Assembly (NCBI RefSeq): GCF_030065545.1
Contig: NZ_JASJNC010000003.1
Coordinates: forward strand, 372,001 to 436,000
Source of the DNA: Marinicella marina
GTDB taxonomy: Bacteria > Pseudomonadota > Gammaproteobacteria > Xanthomonadales > Marinicellaceae
Length of the DNA: 64,000 nucleotides
Direction of reading: 5' to 3'
The notes under the pieces are model-generated. The model searched no databases. It was not told the origin of the DNA and was given only the letters and a program-made list of their open reading frames with translations. Of this stretch, positions 11,463 through 19,413 are shown one piece after another. The stretch's first letter is position 1; each line of letters begins with the position of its first letter. The position numbers and the translations under genes are program-made.

Positions 11463-12737
11463 TCACAGCACCAAAGAAAACAACTCAGGTTGATTGTTGA
11501 GGTAGTCGTTGTAGAACCCCCCTGCCTTCATGCGCTTTAACAGGGGTTCAAAATCTTGGTTGGCATTGAGCTCAATACCAACCACAGCAGGCCCGTGTTC
11601 ACGGTTGTGTTTTTTTTGGTATTGGAAATAAGTGATGTCATCTTGTGGCCCCAAAACATCTGCTACAAACTCCTTTAATGCACCTGCCCGTTGCGGGAAA
11701 CGCACCAAAAAATAATGTTTTAAACCATTGTATAACAGCGCTCGCTCCCGAATTTCTTCAATGCGAGTGATGTCATTGTTGCTGCCGCTAAGAATGCAAA
11801 CCACACGTTTACCTTGAATTTTTGAGCGGTATTGATGCAAACCAGCCAAAGACAAAGCACCTGCTGGTTCCACCACAATCGCATCTTTGTTGTAGAGGTT
11901 TAAAATGGTTTGACAGATCAAACCATCTGGAACCTGAATCACATCATCCAAGTAATTTTGACAGATGGCACGGGTGTGTTCGCCCACTTGTTGTACTGCA
12001 GCACCATCGACGAAACGACTGATTTGGGGCAGCTTGACATGATGCCGCGCCTGCAAAGCAGCGGTCATTGATGCTGCTCCTTCGGGCTCCACACCAATCA
12101 CTTTGGTATGTGGTGCATGTTGTTTGAAAACACTCAACAGACCAGAGGCCAAGCCACCACCACCTATAGGGACAAATACATAGTCAATGTTTTCATTGGC
12201 AGATTGTGACAATAACTCAGTTGCTATGGTTGCCTGTCCCGCAATGATTTCCGGGTCATCGAAGGGATGAATGAAAGGGTGATAATGGCGTTCACTGAAT
12301 TTAACGGCAGCCTGTTGGGCCTCATCAAAAGTATCACCAATTAAACTCACTTTTACCCAATCACCACCAAACATTTTCACCTGATCAACTTTTTGTCGCG
12401 GTGTGGTAACTGGCATAAATACTGTTGCTTTGATTGCCAGTTTACAACAAGTGAAAGCCACGCCCTGGGCATGGTTACCTGCGCTGGCACAAACCACATG
12501 TGACATCTTTGGTTGCTGTTCCTGTAAACTCGCCAACTTGTTATACGCGCCTCGAATCTTATAGGATCTGACGGTTTGTAAATCTTCCCTTTTTAACAAC
12601 ACCTCTGCAGAAAAATGTTCTGAATAATTGAAGTTGGGCATCAATGGCGTCTGTTGAACCACACCCTCAAGCCTCTTTTGTGCAGATTCAACATCAATCA
12701 ATGAGATCATTGATTTTTTTAAAGGCGCGACACTCAT
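11463..12737 (-). CDS. ilvA: Threonine ammonia-lyase, biosynthetic, single regulatory domain
   Basis: A 424-residue PLP enzyme that converts threonine to 2-oxobutanoate, the first step of isoleucine synthesis. Visible are the PLP lysine in REDLQTVRSYKIRGAYNKL, CASAGNHAQGVAFTC, the phosphate-binding loop PIGGGGLASGL, and CILSGSNNDITR. One ACT-like domain follows (about 335-424) with HYFLVRFPQRAGALKEFVADVLGP. This short architecture differs from the two-domain 514-residue E. coli IlvA and looks like the Bacteroidota form. ATG 12737 (AAGTGAG upstream) is preferred over GTG 12746. It is the last gene of the ilv operon, just after ilvC. Confidence 0.95.
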   Translation of the reverse strand: MSVAPLKKSMISLIDVESAQKRLEGVVQQTPLMPNFNYSEHFSAEVLLKREDLQTVRSYKIRGAYNKLASLQEQQPKMSHVVCASAGNHAQGVAFTCCKLAIKATVFMPVTTPRQKVDQVKMFGGDWVKVSLIGDTFDEAQQAAVKFSERHYHPFIHPFDDPEIIAGQATIATELLSQSANENIDYVFVPIGGGGLASGLLSVFKQHAPHTKVIGVEPEGAASMTAALQARHHVKLPQISRFVDGAAVQQVGEHTRAICQNYLDDVIQVPDGLICQTILNLYNKDAIVVEPAGALSLAGLHQYRSKIQGKRVVCILSGSNNDITRIEEIRERALLYNGLKHYFLVRFPQRAGALKEFVADVLGPQDDITYFQYQKKHNREHGPAVVGIELNANQDFEPLLKRMKAGGFYNDYLNNQPELFSLVL

Positions 12738-12755
12738 ATCATTCACTCACTTGAA

Positions 12756-13802
12756 TCAAGCATTTTCAGGTCTGAGTTTTCTGACTTGTTGGCCAGTTTG
12801 CCACAGCTCCGAATTGCGCAGATGTTCCAACTCCTGATCCAGTTTTTCTCGGTAATCAGGTTTTTGGTTGGCCTCGATCACCACCTTGGCTTCTTCACCA
12901 CTGGCAACCCTGGCATACAGCTCTTTGAAAATTGGGGTGTTGGCATCACGAAATTTATGACGCCAATCCAATGCGCCACGTTGTGCCGTGGTTGAAGTAT
13001 TGGCATACATCCAGTCCATGCCATTATCGGCCACCAGTGGCATCAAACTTTGGGTGAGTTCTTCCACCGTTTCATTAAAGGCCTCTGAGGGTGAGTGACC
13101 ATTTTCACGCAGCACGTTATATTGTGCTTCAAACAAGCCAGCGATGGCTCCCATCAAAATTCCACGCTCACCAGTTAGGTCTGAGTAAACTTCTTTTTTA
13201 AAGTCGGTTTCAAACAAATAACCGGAACCCACACCGATTCCCAATGCGGTGGCGGTTTCTTTGGCACTGCCGGTCACATCCTGAAACACCGCATAACTTG
13301 AGTTCAAGCCTTTGCCCTGTTTAAACAAGCTGCGCAATGAAGTTCCAGAACCTTTCGGTGCAACCAATACCACATCTACATCAGATGGTGGCACAATGCC
13401 GGTTTGCTCATGGTATGTGACCCCAAAACCATGCGAAAAATACAAGGTATCACCGGTATTGAGGTTTGCTTTGACTGTTGGCCACGCCGCAATTTGACCA
13501 GCATCAGACAGTAAATACATCACCACATCAGCGCGTTGCGTGGCTTCAGCCAAATCAAACAGGTCCTCCCCCTCAAGCCAGCCATCAGCAAGTGCCTTGT
13601 CCCATGAAGCGGATGCTTTGCGTTGTCCCACAATGACCTGAAAGCCATTGTCTTTTAAGTTCAAAGCCTGACCTGGGCCTTGCACACCATAGCCCAAAAC
13701 CGCAATGGTTTTATTTTTAAGATACTGTTGTGCTTGAGACAAGGGATATTCCTCTCGAGTCACCACTTCCTCCCATGTGCCACCGAAATTCAATTTAGCC
13801 AT
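12756..13802 (-). CDS. ilvC: Ketol-acid reductoisomerase, Bacteroidota/fungal-like type
   Basis: A 348-residue NADPH- and Mg-dependent enzyme that isomerises and reduces acetolactate in valine and isoleucine synthesis. The Rossmann segment is VLGYGVQGPGQALNLKDNG with VGQR, where ordinary class I enzymes have 'GSQGHAHALNL...VGLR'. Further motifs are YFSHGFG, VLVAPKGSGTSLR, SDLTGERGILMGAI, GHSPSEAFNETVEELTQSL and a C-terminal VRKLRPENA. From memory, 'VRKLRPEN' and 'QGxGQALNL' mark the Bacteroidota and mitochondrial/fungal lineage. AGGAG precedes the ATG. It lies 25 bases after ilvN. Confidence 0.97.
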   Translation of the reverse strand: MAKLNFGGTWEEVVTREEYPLSQAQQYLKNKTIAVLGYGVQGPGQALNLKDNGFQVIVGQRKASASWDKALADGWLEGEDLFDLAEATQRADVVMYLLSDAGQIAAWPTVKANLNTGDTLYFSHGFGVTYHEQTGIVPPSDVDVVLVAPKGSGTSLRSLFKQGKGLNSSYAVFQDVTGSAKETATALGIGVGSGYLFETDFKKEVYSDLTGERGILMGAIAGLFEAQYNVLRENGHSPSEAFNETVEELTQSLMPLVADNGMDWMYANTSTTAQRGALDWRHKFRDANTPIFKELYARVASGEEAKVVIEANQKPDYREKLDQELEHLRNSELWQTGQQVRKLRPENA

Positions 13803-13827
13803 AATTTTCTCCTACTTTTTTATTAAT

Positions 13828-14397
13828 CTAAAATTTTGCAACCGCCTGCTCTTCAGGACTACAGGTGGCATGTTGTTTAAAAATAACCGCATCAGTTTGT
13901 GATGCAGCCTGCATCAAAGGCCTGCTGATACTTACCGGTCCTGAACGCACAAATTCAATGACGCCAATAACTGTTAAAGCCTCAAGAAAAGCCTGGTTTT
14001 CCTGGTATTGGCCAGTTCTTTGAATCACTGTGAATTCATTGTTCATGCTCAATACGCTGGCATGGTGCTGACGAATGATTTGTTCAGCTGTTGGTTGATC
14101 TAACATCGACTGGGTGGCCACTTTGAACAAAGCCACTTCAAGTTGAATCAAATCTCTTTCCTCCCTGAATTCCGCACTTATAACATCAATCTGGCGTTCT
14201 AATTGTTTGCTCAATCGCATGGCCACTTGCTGTTCACAATGTACCTGAACGCTGTGTCTGGATACGCCAACTTGTTCAGTTTCACAAACTGAAAGTGCAT
14301 CGATATTCAAATTCACCCGCGAAAAAACTGCGGTAATGCGGTTCAAAATGCCGGTTTGGTCACTCGAATAAATGGCAAAGTTATAATTCTTTTTCAT
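13828..14397 (-). CDS. ilvN: Acetolactate synthase regulatory (small) subunit
   Basis: A 189-residue ACT-domain subunit that binds branched-chain amino acids and adjusts the catalytic subunit. The first ACT domain (about 4-78) has FAIYSSDQTGILNRITAVFSRVNLNIDALSV. The C-terminal half (IQLEVALFKVATQ...VIGVIEFVRSGPVSISR) is the second regulatory domain. The ATG at 14397 is chosen because GGGAGG lies eight bases upstream, inside the end of ilvB; an earlier ATG nine codons upstream lacks a site. The last 25 residues are an unusual extension with Cys. Wording such as 'VALFKV' and 'IEFVRSG' recalls Bacteroidota IlvN. Confidence 0.93.
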   Translation of the reverse strand: MKKNYNFAIYSSDQTGILNRITAVFSRVNLNIDALSVCETEQVGVSRHSVQVHCEQQVAMRLSKQLERQIDVISAEFREERDLIQLEVALFKVATQSMLDQPTAEQIIRQHHASVLSMNNEFTVIQRTGQYQENQAFLEALTVIGVIEFVRSGPVSISRPLMQAASQTDAVIFKQHATCSPEEQAVAKF

Positions 14398-14401
14398 GCG
14401 A

Positions 14402-16183
14402 TTAGCCTCCCATTTGTTCGACATCAGATTCGGGTGATTCTAGGCACATATCTGCCACTGAAGCACCTGGCGTTATGATTGGAAATACATTTTCTTGCTG
14501 CTTCACCATCACTTCAAGTACATAAGCACCGGGATGTGAGAGCATGTCTTTGATGGCTTGATTCAATGCCTTGGGTGAATCAATTTTTTGATTGGCAATT
14601 CCGTAACTCTCAGCAACCATGCAAAAATCTGGGTTACTCATGGGAGTTGAAGCATAGCGTTGTTCAAAGTACAACTCCTGCCACTGGCGAACCATACCCA
14701 AAAATTGATTGTTCAAGATGATGAGTTTAACAGCCAGCTGGTGTTGCATCATCACACCAAGCTCTTGCATGGTCATTTGCACCCCACCATCACCAACCAC
14801 ACCAATCACTGGACGATCTGGGCGGGCAAATTTAGCACCAATGGCTGCAGGCAAACAAAAGCCCATGGTACCGAGTCCACCGGAAGTAATGAGGCTGCGA
14901 CTTTGCTTGAATTTGGCATAGCGACAAGTTGCCATCTGATGCTGACCGACATCGGTCACTAAAATGGCATCATCGCAGTTTTGATTGATGGCTTCAATCA
15001 CCCCAGCCATACCTAACTCATCACCTTCAACATTTAAATCAGCTTGGATAATTTTTTTATCCTCAACCGCATGTAATTTTTGAAAATTCTGCAGCCACAC
15101 TGGATAAGTTTTTGGCCTCAATAATTTGCTCAGCTCTGGCAAGGTCTGCTTCACATCTCCTAAAACAGCAACATCAGCATGGACGTTTTTGTTGATTTCA
15201 CTGGGATCAATTTCCAAATGAATCACTTGGGCTTGTTTGGCATAATAGGCCAAATTACTGGTTACCCGATCATCAAACCGCATGCCCACAGCCACCAATA
15301 CATCACACTCATTAGTCAACGTATTGGGCGCATAATTACCATGCATACCCAACATACCAACGTACTGCGGGTGATCTGTTGGTAGTGCTGATAAGCCAAG
15401 CACAGTACTGGCAACGGGCATCCCACTGCGCTCTAAAAAGCTCAGAAACTCGGTTTCAGCCTCGCCCAAAATGACACCCTGTCCCATCAGCACCATCGGT
15501 TTTTGCGCTTGGTTAATCAAACTGGCGGCTTGCGCCAATGCCAATTGACTGGGCCTGGGGTAGGGTGCATAACTCGTTAAGTTATGACACGATTGATAAA
15601 CAAAATCCAATGCATCCATCTGGGCATTTTTTGTGATATCAATCAACACCGGGCCTGGTCGACCACTTTTGGCGACATAAAACGCTTTGGCCATTGCCGC
15701 TGGAATTTCAGCGGCTGTGGTTACTTTGTAATTCCACTTGGTAACTGGAATGGATATATCCAATATATCGATTTCTTGAAAAGCATCTGTTCCCAGTAAG
15801 CTGGCAAAGACCTGACCTGTGATACAAACGACAGGCGTTGAATCAAGGTAAGCGTCAGCAATGCCGGTAATCAAATTTGTAGCACCTGGACCAGATGTGG
15901 CCACACAAACACCGACCTCACCGCTGGCACGCGCATAACCTTGGGCAGCGTGTACGGCGCCTTGTTCATGGCGCACCAAGATATGCTCTAATTGATTTTC
16001 ATAGTTATACAGCACGTCATAAGTGGGCATGATGGCACCACCTGGATAGCCAAATATTTTTTCAACACCTTCAGCCAAAAGACTCAAGATGATGGCCTCG
16101 GCCCCAGTCACAGTTCGGGTCTCAGCGCTGGCTGCAGGTTTTTGCTTGATGTTAGGATCGGCAATTATTGAGGCTGATTTCAT
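14402..16183 (-). CDS. ilvB: Acetolactate synthase catalytic (large) subunit
   Basis: A 593-residue thiamine diphosphate enzyme that condenses two pyruvates, or pyruvate with 2-oxobutanoate. Motifs: [13 protein letters not shown], the catalytic Glu in [34 protein letters not shown], the ThDP-binding [20 protein letters not shown] and [25 protein letters not shown] is, from memory, typical of the Bacteroidota enzyme. The N-terminal 25 residues are a non-conserved leader. The ATG overlaps the ilvD stop (ATGA), with AAGGAG upstream. The symbol ilvB is generic; ilvG or ilvI would name the same activity. Confidence 0.96.
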
Positions 16184-17970
16184 GATGGAGCTCCTTGTCT
16201 TGAATGATTTTCTGCGCCTTCATCAGGGTTCACATTCAACGCCAGTGGTGCCGGTTTTGCGGCGCTGAATTCGACCACTGAATCAGCTTCACTCGGCAGG
16301 TCAGTCAAACAACCGGTTGACGCCGATGAAACTGTGCGGGCGTATTTTCCTAATGTGCCACGTTGTGTTTTGAGCGGCGGTGCTTGCCAGTTTGTTCTGC
16401 GCTGTGCCAGTTTTGTTGAATCCACATGCAGGGTTATTTGATTTTGTTTGGCATCAATGGTTATGAGGTCGCCATCTTCTACCAAAGCAATTTCGCCACC
16501 GACTTGAGCCTCTGGTGTGACATGGCCAACCACAAAACCATGGGTGCCGCCAGAGAAACGCCCATCAGTGATCAAGGCCACGGAATCACCCAACCCGGCA
16601 CCTATGATGGCGGCTGTTGGCTTGAGCATTTCTGGCATACCAGGCCCACCTTTGGGTCCTACATAGCGAATGACCACCACATCACCGGCCTTTACCTGGT
16701 TTAATGCAATGCCCTCGTTAACCTCTTTCTCGCTGTTGAACACCCGCGCTGGGCCATGAAAAAACTCACCTTCTTTACCGGTGATTTTAGCCACCGCACC
16801 AGCACTGGCCAGATTGCCCTTGAGAATCTGTATGTGACCTGTGGCCTTAATTGGTTTGTGGTAAGGGAGAACCACATCCTGATCAGCATCGAGCGGTTTG
16901 ACCTTGGCTAAATTTTCACTCATGCTGTGACCGGTCACGGTCATACAGCTGCCATCTAACCAACCCAAATCCAACATGTAACTCAGCACGGCAGGGACTC
17001 CACCAATGCGGTGCAGATCCTCCATCAGGTATTGTCCGCTGGGTTTGAGATCGGCCAGAAAAGGTGTGGTATCACTGACTTCTTGTAAATCCTCCAAACT
17101 CAAATCAATGCCGGCGGCATCGGCAATCGCCAAAAAGTGCAGCACCGCATTGGTCGATCCGCCCAACACTGTCACCAACTTGAAAGCATTCAACATCGAT
17201 TCTTTGGTTACGATGTCCCTTGGCTTCAGATTTTTATGAATCAACCCGTTGATGGCATCTGCCACTTGAAGGCATTCGCCCGCTTTGCTGTTACTAACAG
17301 CTGGATTGGATGACGAATAAGGCAGGCTCATGCCCATGGCCTCAATGGCCGCGGCCATGGTGTTGGCGGTGTACATCCCACCACAAGCACCGGCACCGGG
17401 ACAGGCTTTTTGAATCACTTGATGGTAGTTTTTCTCGTCCATTTGGCCCGCCACTTTGGCACCCCAAGCCTCAAAAGCAGAAACCACATCTAGTTTTTTT
17501 CCTGCATGACAACCTGAGGCGATTGTTCCGCCATAAACCAAAACAGCTGGTCGATTCAAACGCAACATCGCCATCATCGCACCTGGCATGTTCTTATCAC
17601 AACCAACCACAGTTACAACCGCATCATAGTGCATACCTGCCACCACTGTTTCCATCGAATCAGCAATTAAATCCCTGGATGGCAGAGAATAATGCATGCC
17701 ACTGGTGCCCATTGAGATGCCGTCTGAAATGCCGATGGTATTAAAAATTAAACCATTGAGTGGGTATTGACTGACCGCCTGTTTGATGTGCTTTGCCAAG
17801 TCATTCAAATGCATGTTACAAGGGTTGCCCTCATATCCTGTGGATGCGATACCAACAAATGGTTGATTCAATTGTTCAGGCGTCAAGCCAATCGCATGTA
17901 ACATGGCTTTGGCTGCTGGCTGGCTGTCGTCTTGAGTAACAGCTTGTGAATAGGGGTTTAATATTTTCAT
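16180..17970 (-). CDS. ilvD: Dihydroxy-acid dehydratase
   Basis: A 596-residue iron-sulfur enzyme that dehydrates dihydroxy acids to 2-oxo acids, the third common step to valine and isoleucine. The three cluster cysteines lie in [19 protein letters not shown] and [16 protein letters not shown]. Other motifs are [40 protein letters not shown] and [15 protein letters not shown]. The sequence is nearer to the Bacteroidota/eukaryotic type than to E. coli IlvD. The C-terminal 40 residues are an extra low-conservation tail. The start shares a base with the ilvE stop (TGATG), so translation is coupled. Confidence 0.97.
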
Positions 17971-18866
17971 CAGGCAGCCTTGGTTTTTTTAAATTTAACT
18001 TTTCGCAGTCGAACATGTTGGTGAAATTGTTGTTGTAATGTGGCACCAAAAGTATCTGGCCAAGGTAACTTGAAGGGTTGTCTATTGATGCTACCTATGG
18101 CCTGTATCTCAACCGCTGTACCGGTTAAAAAGGCACCGTCTGCTGCCATCAATTCATCCGGTGTGAATAACTTTTCATGGACAGTTATGCCATTGGCTGC
18201 TGCCAACTGCATGACTATTGAACGGGTGATACCAGGCAGAATATTGCCTTTAGGCGGGGTAAAAAGTGCACCATCTTTTTGGCAAAATATATTGGCACCA
18301 CTGGCCTCAGCAACATAGCCTTTTTGATCCAATAACAAAGCATCATCAAAGCCCTCGTTATGGGCATCTTTCATGGCTAAAATTGAATTGACATAATGGC
18401 CTGAGACCTTGGCATCAACATGACATGAACGTGGGTCAGGGCGACAATAGGGTGAAACTTTCATGCTCAATTCACCTGCGGCGAAATACTGACTCCAGTC
18501 CCATGCGCAGAGAAACAAGTTGGATTTATTTTCAGCCTGCAGACCCAGTTTTTCCTCAGCATATACCAGTGGCCTGATGTAGGCATCTTGTAAATTGTTC
18601 TTTGCCAATAACTCTTGCGTTAATTGAATCAACTGCTCCACGCTGTAGTCAACATCAAGGTGCATCATCTTGGCTGAATACAACAACCTTTCATAGTGCG
18701 CTTCAGCCCTAAGGATTTGTGCACCCTGATCAGTGGCATAGGCCCGAATGCCCTCAAAGACGCCATTGCCATAATGGAAAGACTGTTGGTACAGACCTGT
18801 TGAAGTGTCTTTGGCCAATTGCCATTGGCCATTAAGGTAAATCACTGTTTCGTTGTTGTAATACAT
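17970..18866 (-). CDS. ilvE: Branched-chain amino acid aminotransferase
   Basis: A 298-residue fold-type IV PLP enzyme for the last transamination to valine, isoleucine and leucine. Seen are [13 protein letters not shown], the segment with the probable PLP lysine [37 protein letters not shown] and [16 protein letters not shown]. It starts at ATG 18866 with AGAGAG upstream and is the first structural gene of the ilv operon, directly after the attenuator. The last residues are basic ([13 protein letters not shown]). Confidence 0.95.
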
Positions 18867-18912
18867 CGTTCTCTCTTTTTTTATTTTTGTTGGTTTAAAA
18901 AATTAAAGTAAA

Positions 18913-18945
18913 AAAAAAGCCCTTCTTGGTGAGAAGGGCTTTTTT
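18913..18945 (-). terminator. Attenuator terminator of the ilv operon
   Basis: AAGCCCTTCT (18917-18926) and AGAAGGGCTT (18932-18941) form a perfect 10-bp stem with a 5-base loop, extendable by A-T pairs. In the minus-strand transcript it is followed by about nine U. It lies between the leader peptide (stop at 18970) and ilvE (start 18866), the position of a classical transcription attenuator. It is nearly symmetric, but no plus-strand gene ends here. Confidence 0.82.
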
Positions 18946-18969
18946 GGATTGACCAATTGTTTGCCGAAC

Positions 18970-19047
18970 TCACCACACATGTGGGTCAATAATCACGAGG
19001 ACGATGACGACGATGTTAATGAGTTGAATGTTGGCAAATAAGTTCAT
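18970..19047 (-). CDS. ilvL: ilv operon leader peptide
   Basis: A 25-codon open frame from ATG 19047 to TGA 18970. Fourteen of 25 residues are Ile (6), Val (5) or Leu (3), mostly in the run QLINIVVIVLVII (residues 8-20); it ends DPHVW. The terminator hairpin follows within 25-55 bases. This is the standard arrangement by which ribosome stalling on Ile, Val or Leu codons prevents the terminator from forming. No strong ribosome site is visible before the ATG (an A-rich stretch instead), which is the one weak point. It is a cis-acting sensor, not a functional protein. Confidence 0.87.
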   Translation of the reverse strand: MNLFANIQLINIVVIVLVIIDPHVW

Positions 19048-19302
19048 TTGGATTAATTTTTTCAGTTTATTTTTGTTGTTGTTAATAAAATATTTTGTGT
19101 TCGTTTCGGCATATGTTGTTGCAGCTAATTTTTATTGTCAACAATTATTTTTGGTTTTTTCATGGCGCTGCATGAATACAAAAAAAGTATTTCTTTTTTC
19201 AATTTATTTATGTTAGCTTAAAAAAAGGCGTCCAATTTTTAAGCATAAAAACAGGACAAATCGATCACTTATTAGATTAAAAATAACCAAGAGGAAACCG
19301 TT
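19048..19302. promoter_or_regulatory. Divergent ilv/leu promoter region
   Basis: This 255-base A/T-rich gap separates the ilv leader (minus) from the leu leader (plus) and must hold both promoters. On the minus strand a perfect TTGACA -35 box lies at 19142-19137, but the -10 choices downstream (such as CATATG) are poor. On the plus strand no convincing pair is visible; TATGTT near 19209-19214 is a possible -10. No open frame of interest is seen in the gap. Confidence 0.4.
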
Positions 19303-19413
19303 ATGAAACGGCAACATTATCGACATCATCACACACCTGTAAACAGCTCAACAACCAACCCATCTAACGCCCGCATCATTCTCCTCGACCTCCTCCTCTT
19401 GATTAGAATTTAA
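19303..19413 (+). CDS. leuL: leu operon leader peptide
   Basis: A 36-codon frame with GAGGAA seven bases before the ATG at 19303 and TAA at 19411. Residues 27-33 read LLDLLLL, six leucines in seven codons (CTC CTC GAC CTC CTC CTC TTG), flanked by Ile pairs. leuA begins 147 bases later. This is the expected design of a leucine attenuator. Unusual points are the four His in residues 5-10 (HYRHHH) and the length before the control codons. The frame was found by translating this gap directly. Confidence 0.78.
   Translation: MKRQHYRHHHTPVNSSTTNPSNARIILLDLLLLIRI

Follow-up and report, generated by a model that had tools for sequence, protein, structure and literature searches.

Leader-peptide attenuators have been described for ilvG, ilvI and leuA in Shewanella (PMC2659441), and proteobacterial attenuators of the same three genes are attributed to Vitreschak et al. 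2004 in the passage of PMC2965389 that cites them. Biased control codons have been reported for attenuator leaders (PMC1183508). In Escherichia coli K-12 the ilvL leader of the ilvXGMEDA operon (NC_000913.3, 3950322-3950420) is rich in Ile and Val, and by inspection its in-frame GUGCGGGG is complementary to the terminator sequence CCCCCGCAC.

Here we describe a locus in a 64-kb stretch of Marinicella marina DNA (the window, meaning the whole stretch analysed) that, judged by its sequence elements and modelled RNA structures, very probably controls the ilvEDBNCA operon as a ribosome-mediated transcription attenuator. In silico support comes from all of the sequence elements, their conservation and the competing pairings. 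As in the Shewanella attenuators, a leader peptide, an antiterminator and a terminator are combined. With E. coli ilvL the locus shares an Ile/Val-rich leader (15/32 residues there vs 14/25 here), a GC hairpin, eight to nine T residues soon past the stop codon and ilv genes downstream. In contrast, the Marinicella antiterminator has another sequence and includes the leader stop codon, and the first gene of the operon is ilvE, unlike in enteric ilvXGMEDA. The first-pass annotation had assigned the locus to the enteric ilvGMEDA design; this applies to the attenuator logic, but not to the gene order (ilvE-D-B/G-N-C-A), and there is no detectable homology in leader or RNA sequence.

The window peptide was not matched by the Pfam family IlvGEDA_leader (PF08046, cut-off 25 bits), and searches of Pfam and NCBIfam with the 25-residue ilvL peptide returned no match. 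An X-padded peptide from one relative scored 11.4 bits against PF08046 (E 0.26), which does not place it in the family. At the gathering threshold no Rfam family, including the cis-regulatory leader families, was found in the window. Thr_leader (RF00506) reached 26.3 bits on the correct strand against a gathering score of 55; this family and Phe_leader (RF01859) have the generic leader-terminator layout in common with ilvL. The sub-threshold leader-like Rfam matches obtained at a relaxed threshold were taken as chance. Marinicella ilvL would work like enteric ilvL, but is outside the enteric Pfam leader family and every Rfam family. No earlier description of a Marinicellaceae ilv attenuator was found in the literature within the search scope, outside which Vitreschak et al. 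2004 lies; among the matches listed for Marinicella and leader peptide, the publications concerned other subjects.

An Ile/Val-rich leader precedes the ilv operon

The features of the locus are as follows.

19113..19141, minus strand: putative promoter, -35 TTGACA (19141-19136), 17-nt spacer and weak -10 CAACAT (19118-19113), in a box conserved in relatives
19047..18970, minus strand: leader peptide ORF ilvL, 25 aa, MNLFANIQLINIVVIVLVIIDPHVW*, TGA stop
19012..19025, minus strand: region 1, protector 5' arm at codons 8-12, predicted by RNAfold, able to pair with region 2
18988..19014, minus strand: control codons 12-20 (ATC GTC GTC ATC GTC CTC GTG ATT ATT), assigned from codon composition and Val codon bias
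18963..18975, minus strand: region 2, UGGUGAGUUCGGC, antiterminator 5' strand, spanning the leader stop; GGUGAG invariant in 20 aligned leaders
18927..18939, minus strand: region 3, GCCCUUCUCACCA, terminator 5' arm and loop and also antiterminator 3' strand, predicted to pair with region 2
18910..18945, minus strand: intrinsic terminator (3:4), 10-14 bp stem, 5-nt loop, 9-T run
17970..18866, minus strand: ilvE, branched-chain aminotransferase, first gene of the operon (NCBIfam TIGR01122, 265.8 bits)
11463..17970, minus strand: ilvD, acetolactate synthase large and small subunits, ilvC and ilvA (TIGR00110, TIGR00118, TIGR00119, TIGR00465 and TIGR02079, all above cut-off)

Translation of 18970..19047 confirmed that 14 of the 25 ilvL residues are Ile, Val or Leu, as the first-pass annotation had stated. 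Ile and Val account for most of the control codons; there are three Leu codons, one of which (codon 17) lies within the control stretch. GTC makes up 68% of the Val codons in the leaders vs 19% in the ilv/leu genes, and GTT is absent (0/85 leader Val codons), in agreement with the reported bias of control codons. The leader is rich in codons for the end products of the operon, with 12-15 Ile, Val or Leu residues in each of the 20 relatives described below. A Shine-Dalgarno sequence was found at the ilvL start in none of the 20 leaders, extending the earlier remark that the window leader lacks a good ribosome site; translation of ilvL is therefore an assumption. In E. coli, too, the start annotated for ilvL (AAGAAAAGACAAAATG) is without a strong Shine-Dalgarno sequence.

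Upstream of the leader, each of the 19 relatives whose sequence reaches far enough has TTGACA or TTGACT and, after a 17-nt spacer, an AT-ending hexamer; this box lies 59-133 nt ahead of the ATG. The -10 hexamers include GATTAT, CAACAT, AAACAT, CACTAT and similar sequences; the CAACAT of the window is poor and was missed by a consensus scan. Downstream, the operon consists of biosynthesis genes for the amino acids that would be sensed (ilvE, D, B/G, N, C and A). The divergent neighbours are leuA, leuC, leuD and leuB, of which leuA was profile-checked and the other three were named by their sequences.

Competing RNA structures are predicted in the leader

An intrinsic terminator lies between the leader and the first gene and is kept in all relatives. 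It consists of AAGCCCTTCT (18941-18932), the loop CACCA and AGAAGGGCTT (18926-18917), with nine T residues on its 3' side (18918-18910). The 10-bp stem is perfect and the U-run is present, as the first-pass annotation had proposed, but where that annotation has "GC-rich", only 5/10 pairs are G-C. Flanking A-U pairs lengthen the stem to 14 bp (18945-18913). The stem ends 53 nt past the ilvL stop codon, within the 55 bases given earlier, and ilvE starts at 18866, 44 nt past the T run and outside the predicted helices. Folding of the 156-nt leader RNA gave -40.1 kcal/mol vs -24.4 for shuffles (z -4.2). All 14 terminator pairs form in every relative in the model-fitted alignment, a figure that is partly by construction because the alignment was fitted to the terminator structure.

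The predicted antiterminator pairs UGGUGAG(UUC)GGC of region 2 with GCC(CUU)CUCACCA of region 3 (7 + 3 base pairs), and its formation would exclude the terminator; two relatives are marginal and covariation is weak. Whether relatives conserve an antiterminator had been posed as a check in the first-pass annotation; one is conserved, and RNAfold predicted an equivalent helix in 20/20 leaders with some register change. In the second genus of the family the GG:CC pairs are partly lost and UU is replaced by AA, gaining A-U pairs with UU of region 3, and in one relative (L018) the GGC part is gone and eight continuous pairs are found instead. The helix thus moves register yet persists. The region 2/3 duplex was better than 97% of shuffles in 18/20 leaders; those of L014 and L018 were not clearly above shuffled sequence (79 and 52 of 1000, respectively). 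In a slide control, antiterminator cells were paired in 81% of cases vs 31-51% in slid registers. Covariation is slight since most pairs hardly vary: one pair alone (columns 25/81) varies on both sides, and shuffles were often equal.

Region 2 can alternatively be taken up by a predicted protector (1:2) that overlaps the leader codons. The mean pairing probability over region 2 is 0.84 for the window and spans 0.60-0.99 across relatives, and the location of the protector depends on the genus, at about codons 4-11 in the first and 11-18 in the second. The first-pass annotation had called the attenuator "complete"; this was not warranted by leader and terminator alone, but is so once the protector, the antiterminator and the conserved promoter box are included.

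The probable attenuator is conserved in the Marinicellaceae

Comparison covered 20 orthologous ilvE loci from two genera, the window's own included, at 58-100% identity; relatives identified through ilvE at 71-84% include Marinicella litoralis and M. meishanensis, which places the window in Marinicella or close to it. In an initial alignment (MAFFT, A1) the second genus had a displaced terminator arm, and the seed alignment (A2) has one A inserted in rows L012, L014 and L016 for register; pair counts were taken from natural, unaltered sequences realigned by the model (A4).

All 20 loci contain an ATG, an Ile/Val/Leu-rich frame, a TGA that forms part of GGTGAG, and the terminator with GCCCTTCTC. 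The outcome that the first-pass annotation had named as counting against it was retention of the hairpin with loss of the frame; the opposite was seen, both being kept in the 20 loci and in a further one (L059) at ilvD. ATG-to-stop lengths take seven values (17, 18, 19, 20, 24, 25 and 26 codons), every one in frame. With the ATG and GGTGAG fixed and all length differences multiples of three, these data show selection on the reading frame.

The further, 21st copy (L059; C40 of genome G019) is a covariance-model match directly 5' of ilvD, with no ilvE orthologue present. As this copy adjoins ilvD without ilvE, the element belongs to the operon and not to ilvE. In G019 the ilvE orthologue has been lost from the head of the operon, and just more distant aminotransferase paralogues occur elsewhere.

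The attenuator was detected in 20/22 family genomes with ilvC vs 1/11 without it. The exceptions are G018, whose KARI scores quite differently, and two fragmented assemblies, one with ilvC and no element detected (G031) and the other with the element and no ilvC detected (G014). Among about 600 sampled gammaproteobacterial genomes in total, the covariance model found no true copies outside the Marinicellaceae (~220 additional genomes from the order and ~365 more from the class). In the rest of the order, five matches scored 33-37 bits and covered mainly the terminator. One class-wide match (G591, 47 bits) lies next to a tRNA-like gene and not an ilv gene, and was rejected as an ordinary terminator.

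As a separate observation, five genomes of the genus Marinicella (G001, G002, G007, G010 and G011; 91-98% complete) lack ilvC, an ilvE orthologue and a close leuA, and are probably branched-chain amino acid auxotrophs. The attenuator is absent from the first four, and G011 has one weak 42-bit model match.

A Leu-rich leader precedes the divergent leuA

On the opposite strand, two further features lie upstream of leuA.

19303..19413, plus strand: Leu-rich leader ORF MKRQHYRHHHTPVNSSTTNPSNARIILLDLLLLIRI*, with ribosome site AAGAGGAA; also in L063-L082
19410..19555, plus strand: segment between the leu leader and leuA in which TTCGAA occurs twice, at a distance of about 75 nt, as mutually pairable motifs

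The Leu-rich leader was present in all 19 of the family genomes in which the start of leuA was readable, with endings LLLLIRI, LLLLRLI or similar. By inspection, no conserved U-run terminator follows it in these 19 genomes, many of which have a run of Leu codons able to pair with the ribosome-binding region upstream of leuA. In the actinobacterial LEU element, Leu codons pair with the ribosome-binding region of leuA (PMC1262725). By analogy, the Marinicella leuA leader may act by LEU-element-like translational attenuation. Pairing of a leader with its own ribosome site was more stable than pairing in swapped combinations (61 of 10,000 permutations were as good, with relatedness ignored), and shuffle controls for single genomes were mostly not significant. 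The TTCGAA motifs, followed in the window and in aligned leuA gaps from L002, L003, L005-L007 and L010, may alternatively lie within separate hairpins, GTTCTGA..TCAGAAC and GACGTGA..TTTACGTC. This arrangement suggests another set of alternative structures in that segment.

Proposed mechanism and alternative explanations

For the ilvL attenuator, translation, stalling, termination and the amino acid response are deduced from the elements described above. RNA polymerase would start near the promoter box at 19141-19113 and a ribosome would translate ilvL. With ample charged tRNA-Ile and tRNA-Val, the ribosome would reach the UGA (18972-18970); since this codon lies inside region 2, a ribosome at the stop would cover region 2 and block the antiterminator, so that the 3:4 hairpin would form and transcription would end near 18910. 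When Ile or Val (Leu less so) is short, the ribosome would stall at codons 12-20 and mask region 1; region 2, thus freed, would capture GCC(CUU)CUCACCA, the terminator would be blocked and the operon transcribed. If the leader were not translated, the 1:2 protector would form, making termination the default.

An extremely improbable alternative is that the terminator is constitutive or non-ribosomal, either ending an upstream transcript or serving a protein- or small-RNA-dependent attenuator, and that the Ile/Val frame is a coincidence of AT-rich sequence. Ile-rich frames do arise by chance in AT-rich intergenic DNA, and five of the 1220 short ORFs (15-36 aa) in the 64-kb window consist of at least 50% Ile, Val or Leu; however, ilvL is the only one of the 1220 in which such a frame is followed by a terminator on its 3' side. 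The end of an upstream transcript is also a poor fit, as leuA is divergent and therefore no same-strand upstream gene needs a terminator here. Moreover, the element goes along with the ilv operon across genomes, the antiterminator bases after the stop codon are conserved, and lengths change in ways that preserve the frame over 20 genomes. This explanation is largely refuted by the in-frame indels.

Ribosome-mediated sensing of Ile and Val could also act mainly on ilvE translation or RNA stability and not on transcription termination, a reading we regard as very improbable. In its favour, the leuA leader on the opposite strand of this intergenic region is without a U-run terminator, so the lineage may use translational control at leuA. 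At ilvE, in contrast, a strong stem and 9-T run occur in every relative, the antiterminator overlaps the 5' arm of the terminator, and the ilvE start is separated from the T run and lies beyond the predicted helices. These features favour transcription attenuation.

Implications

A broader proposal is offered tentatively, as one we consider rather unlikely to hold as a whole: that this ilv attenuator is specific to the Marinicellaceae, through separate origin or divergence past recognition, that its stop codon is placed in the antiterminator GGUGAG, and that it stands back to back with a translation-acting, Leu-rich leuA leader. The paired leu leader is a lead that merits separate study. Work on how attenuation is tuned by leader length, by the placement of the stop codon and by codon choice could draw on the 21 natural variants, whose leaders range from about 17 to 26 codons. 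Classical attenuation by amino acids, its parts all identifiable, would extend to a marine family in which Pfam, NCBIfam and Rfam recognise no such element. If the broader proposal is true, a single 700-bp intergenic region would hold two attenuators that act on the branched-chain pathway by different mechanisms.
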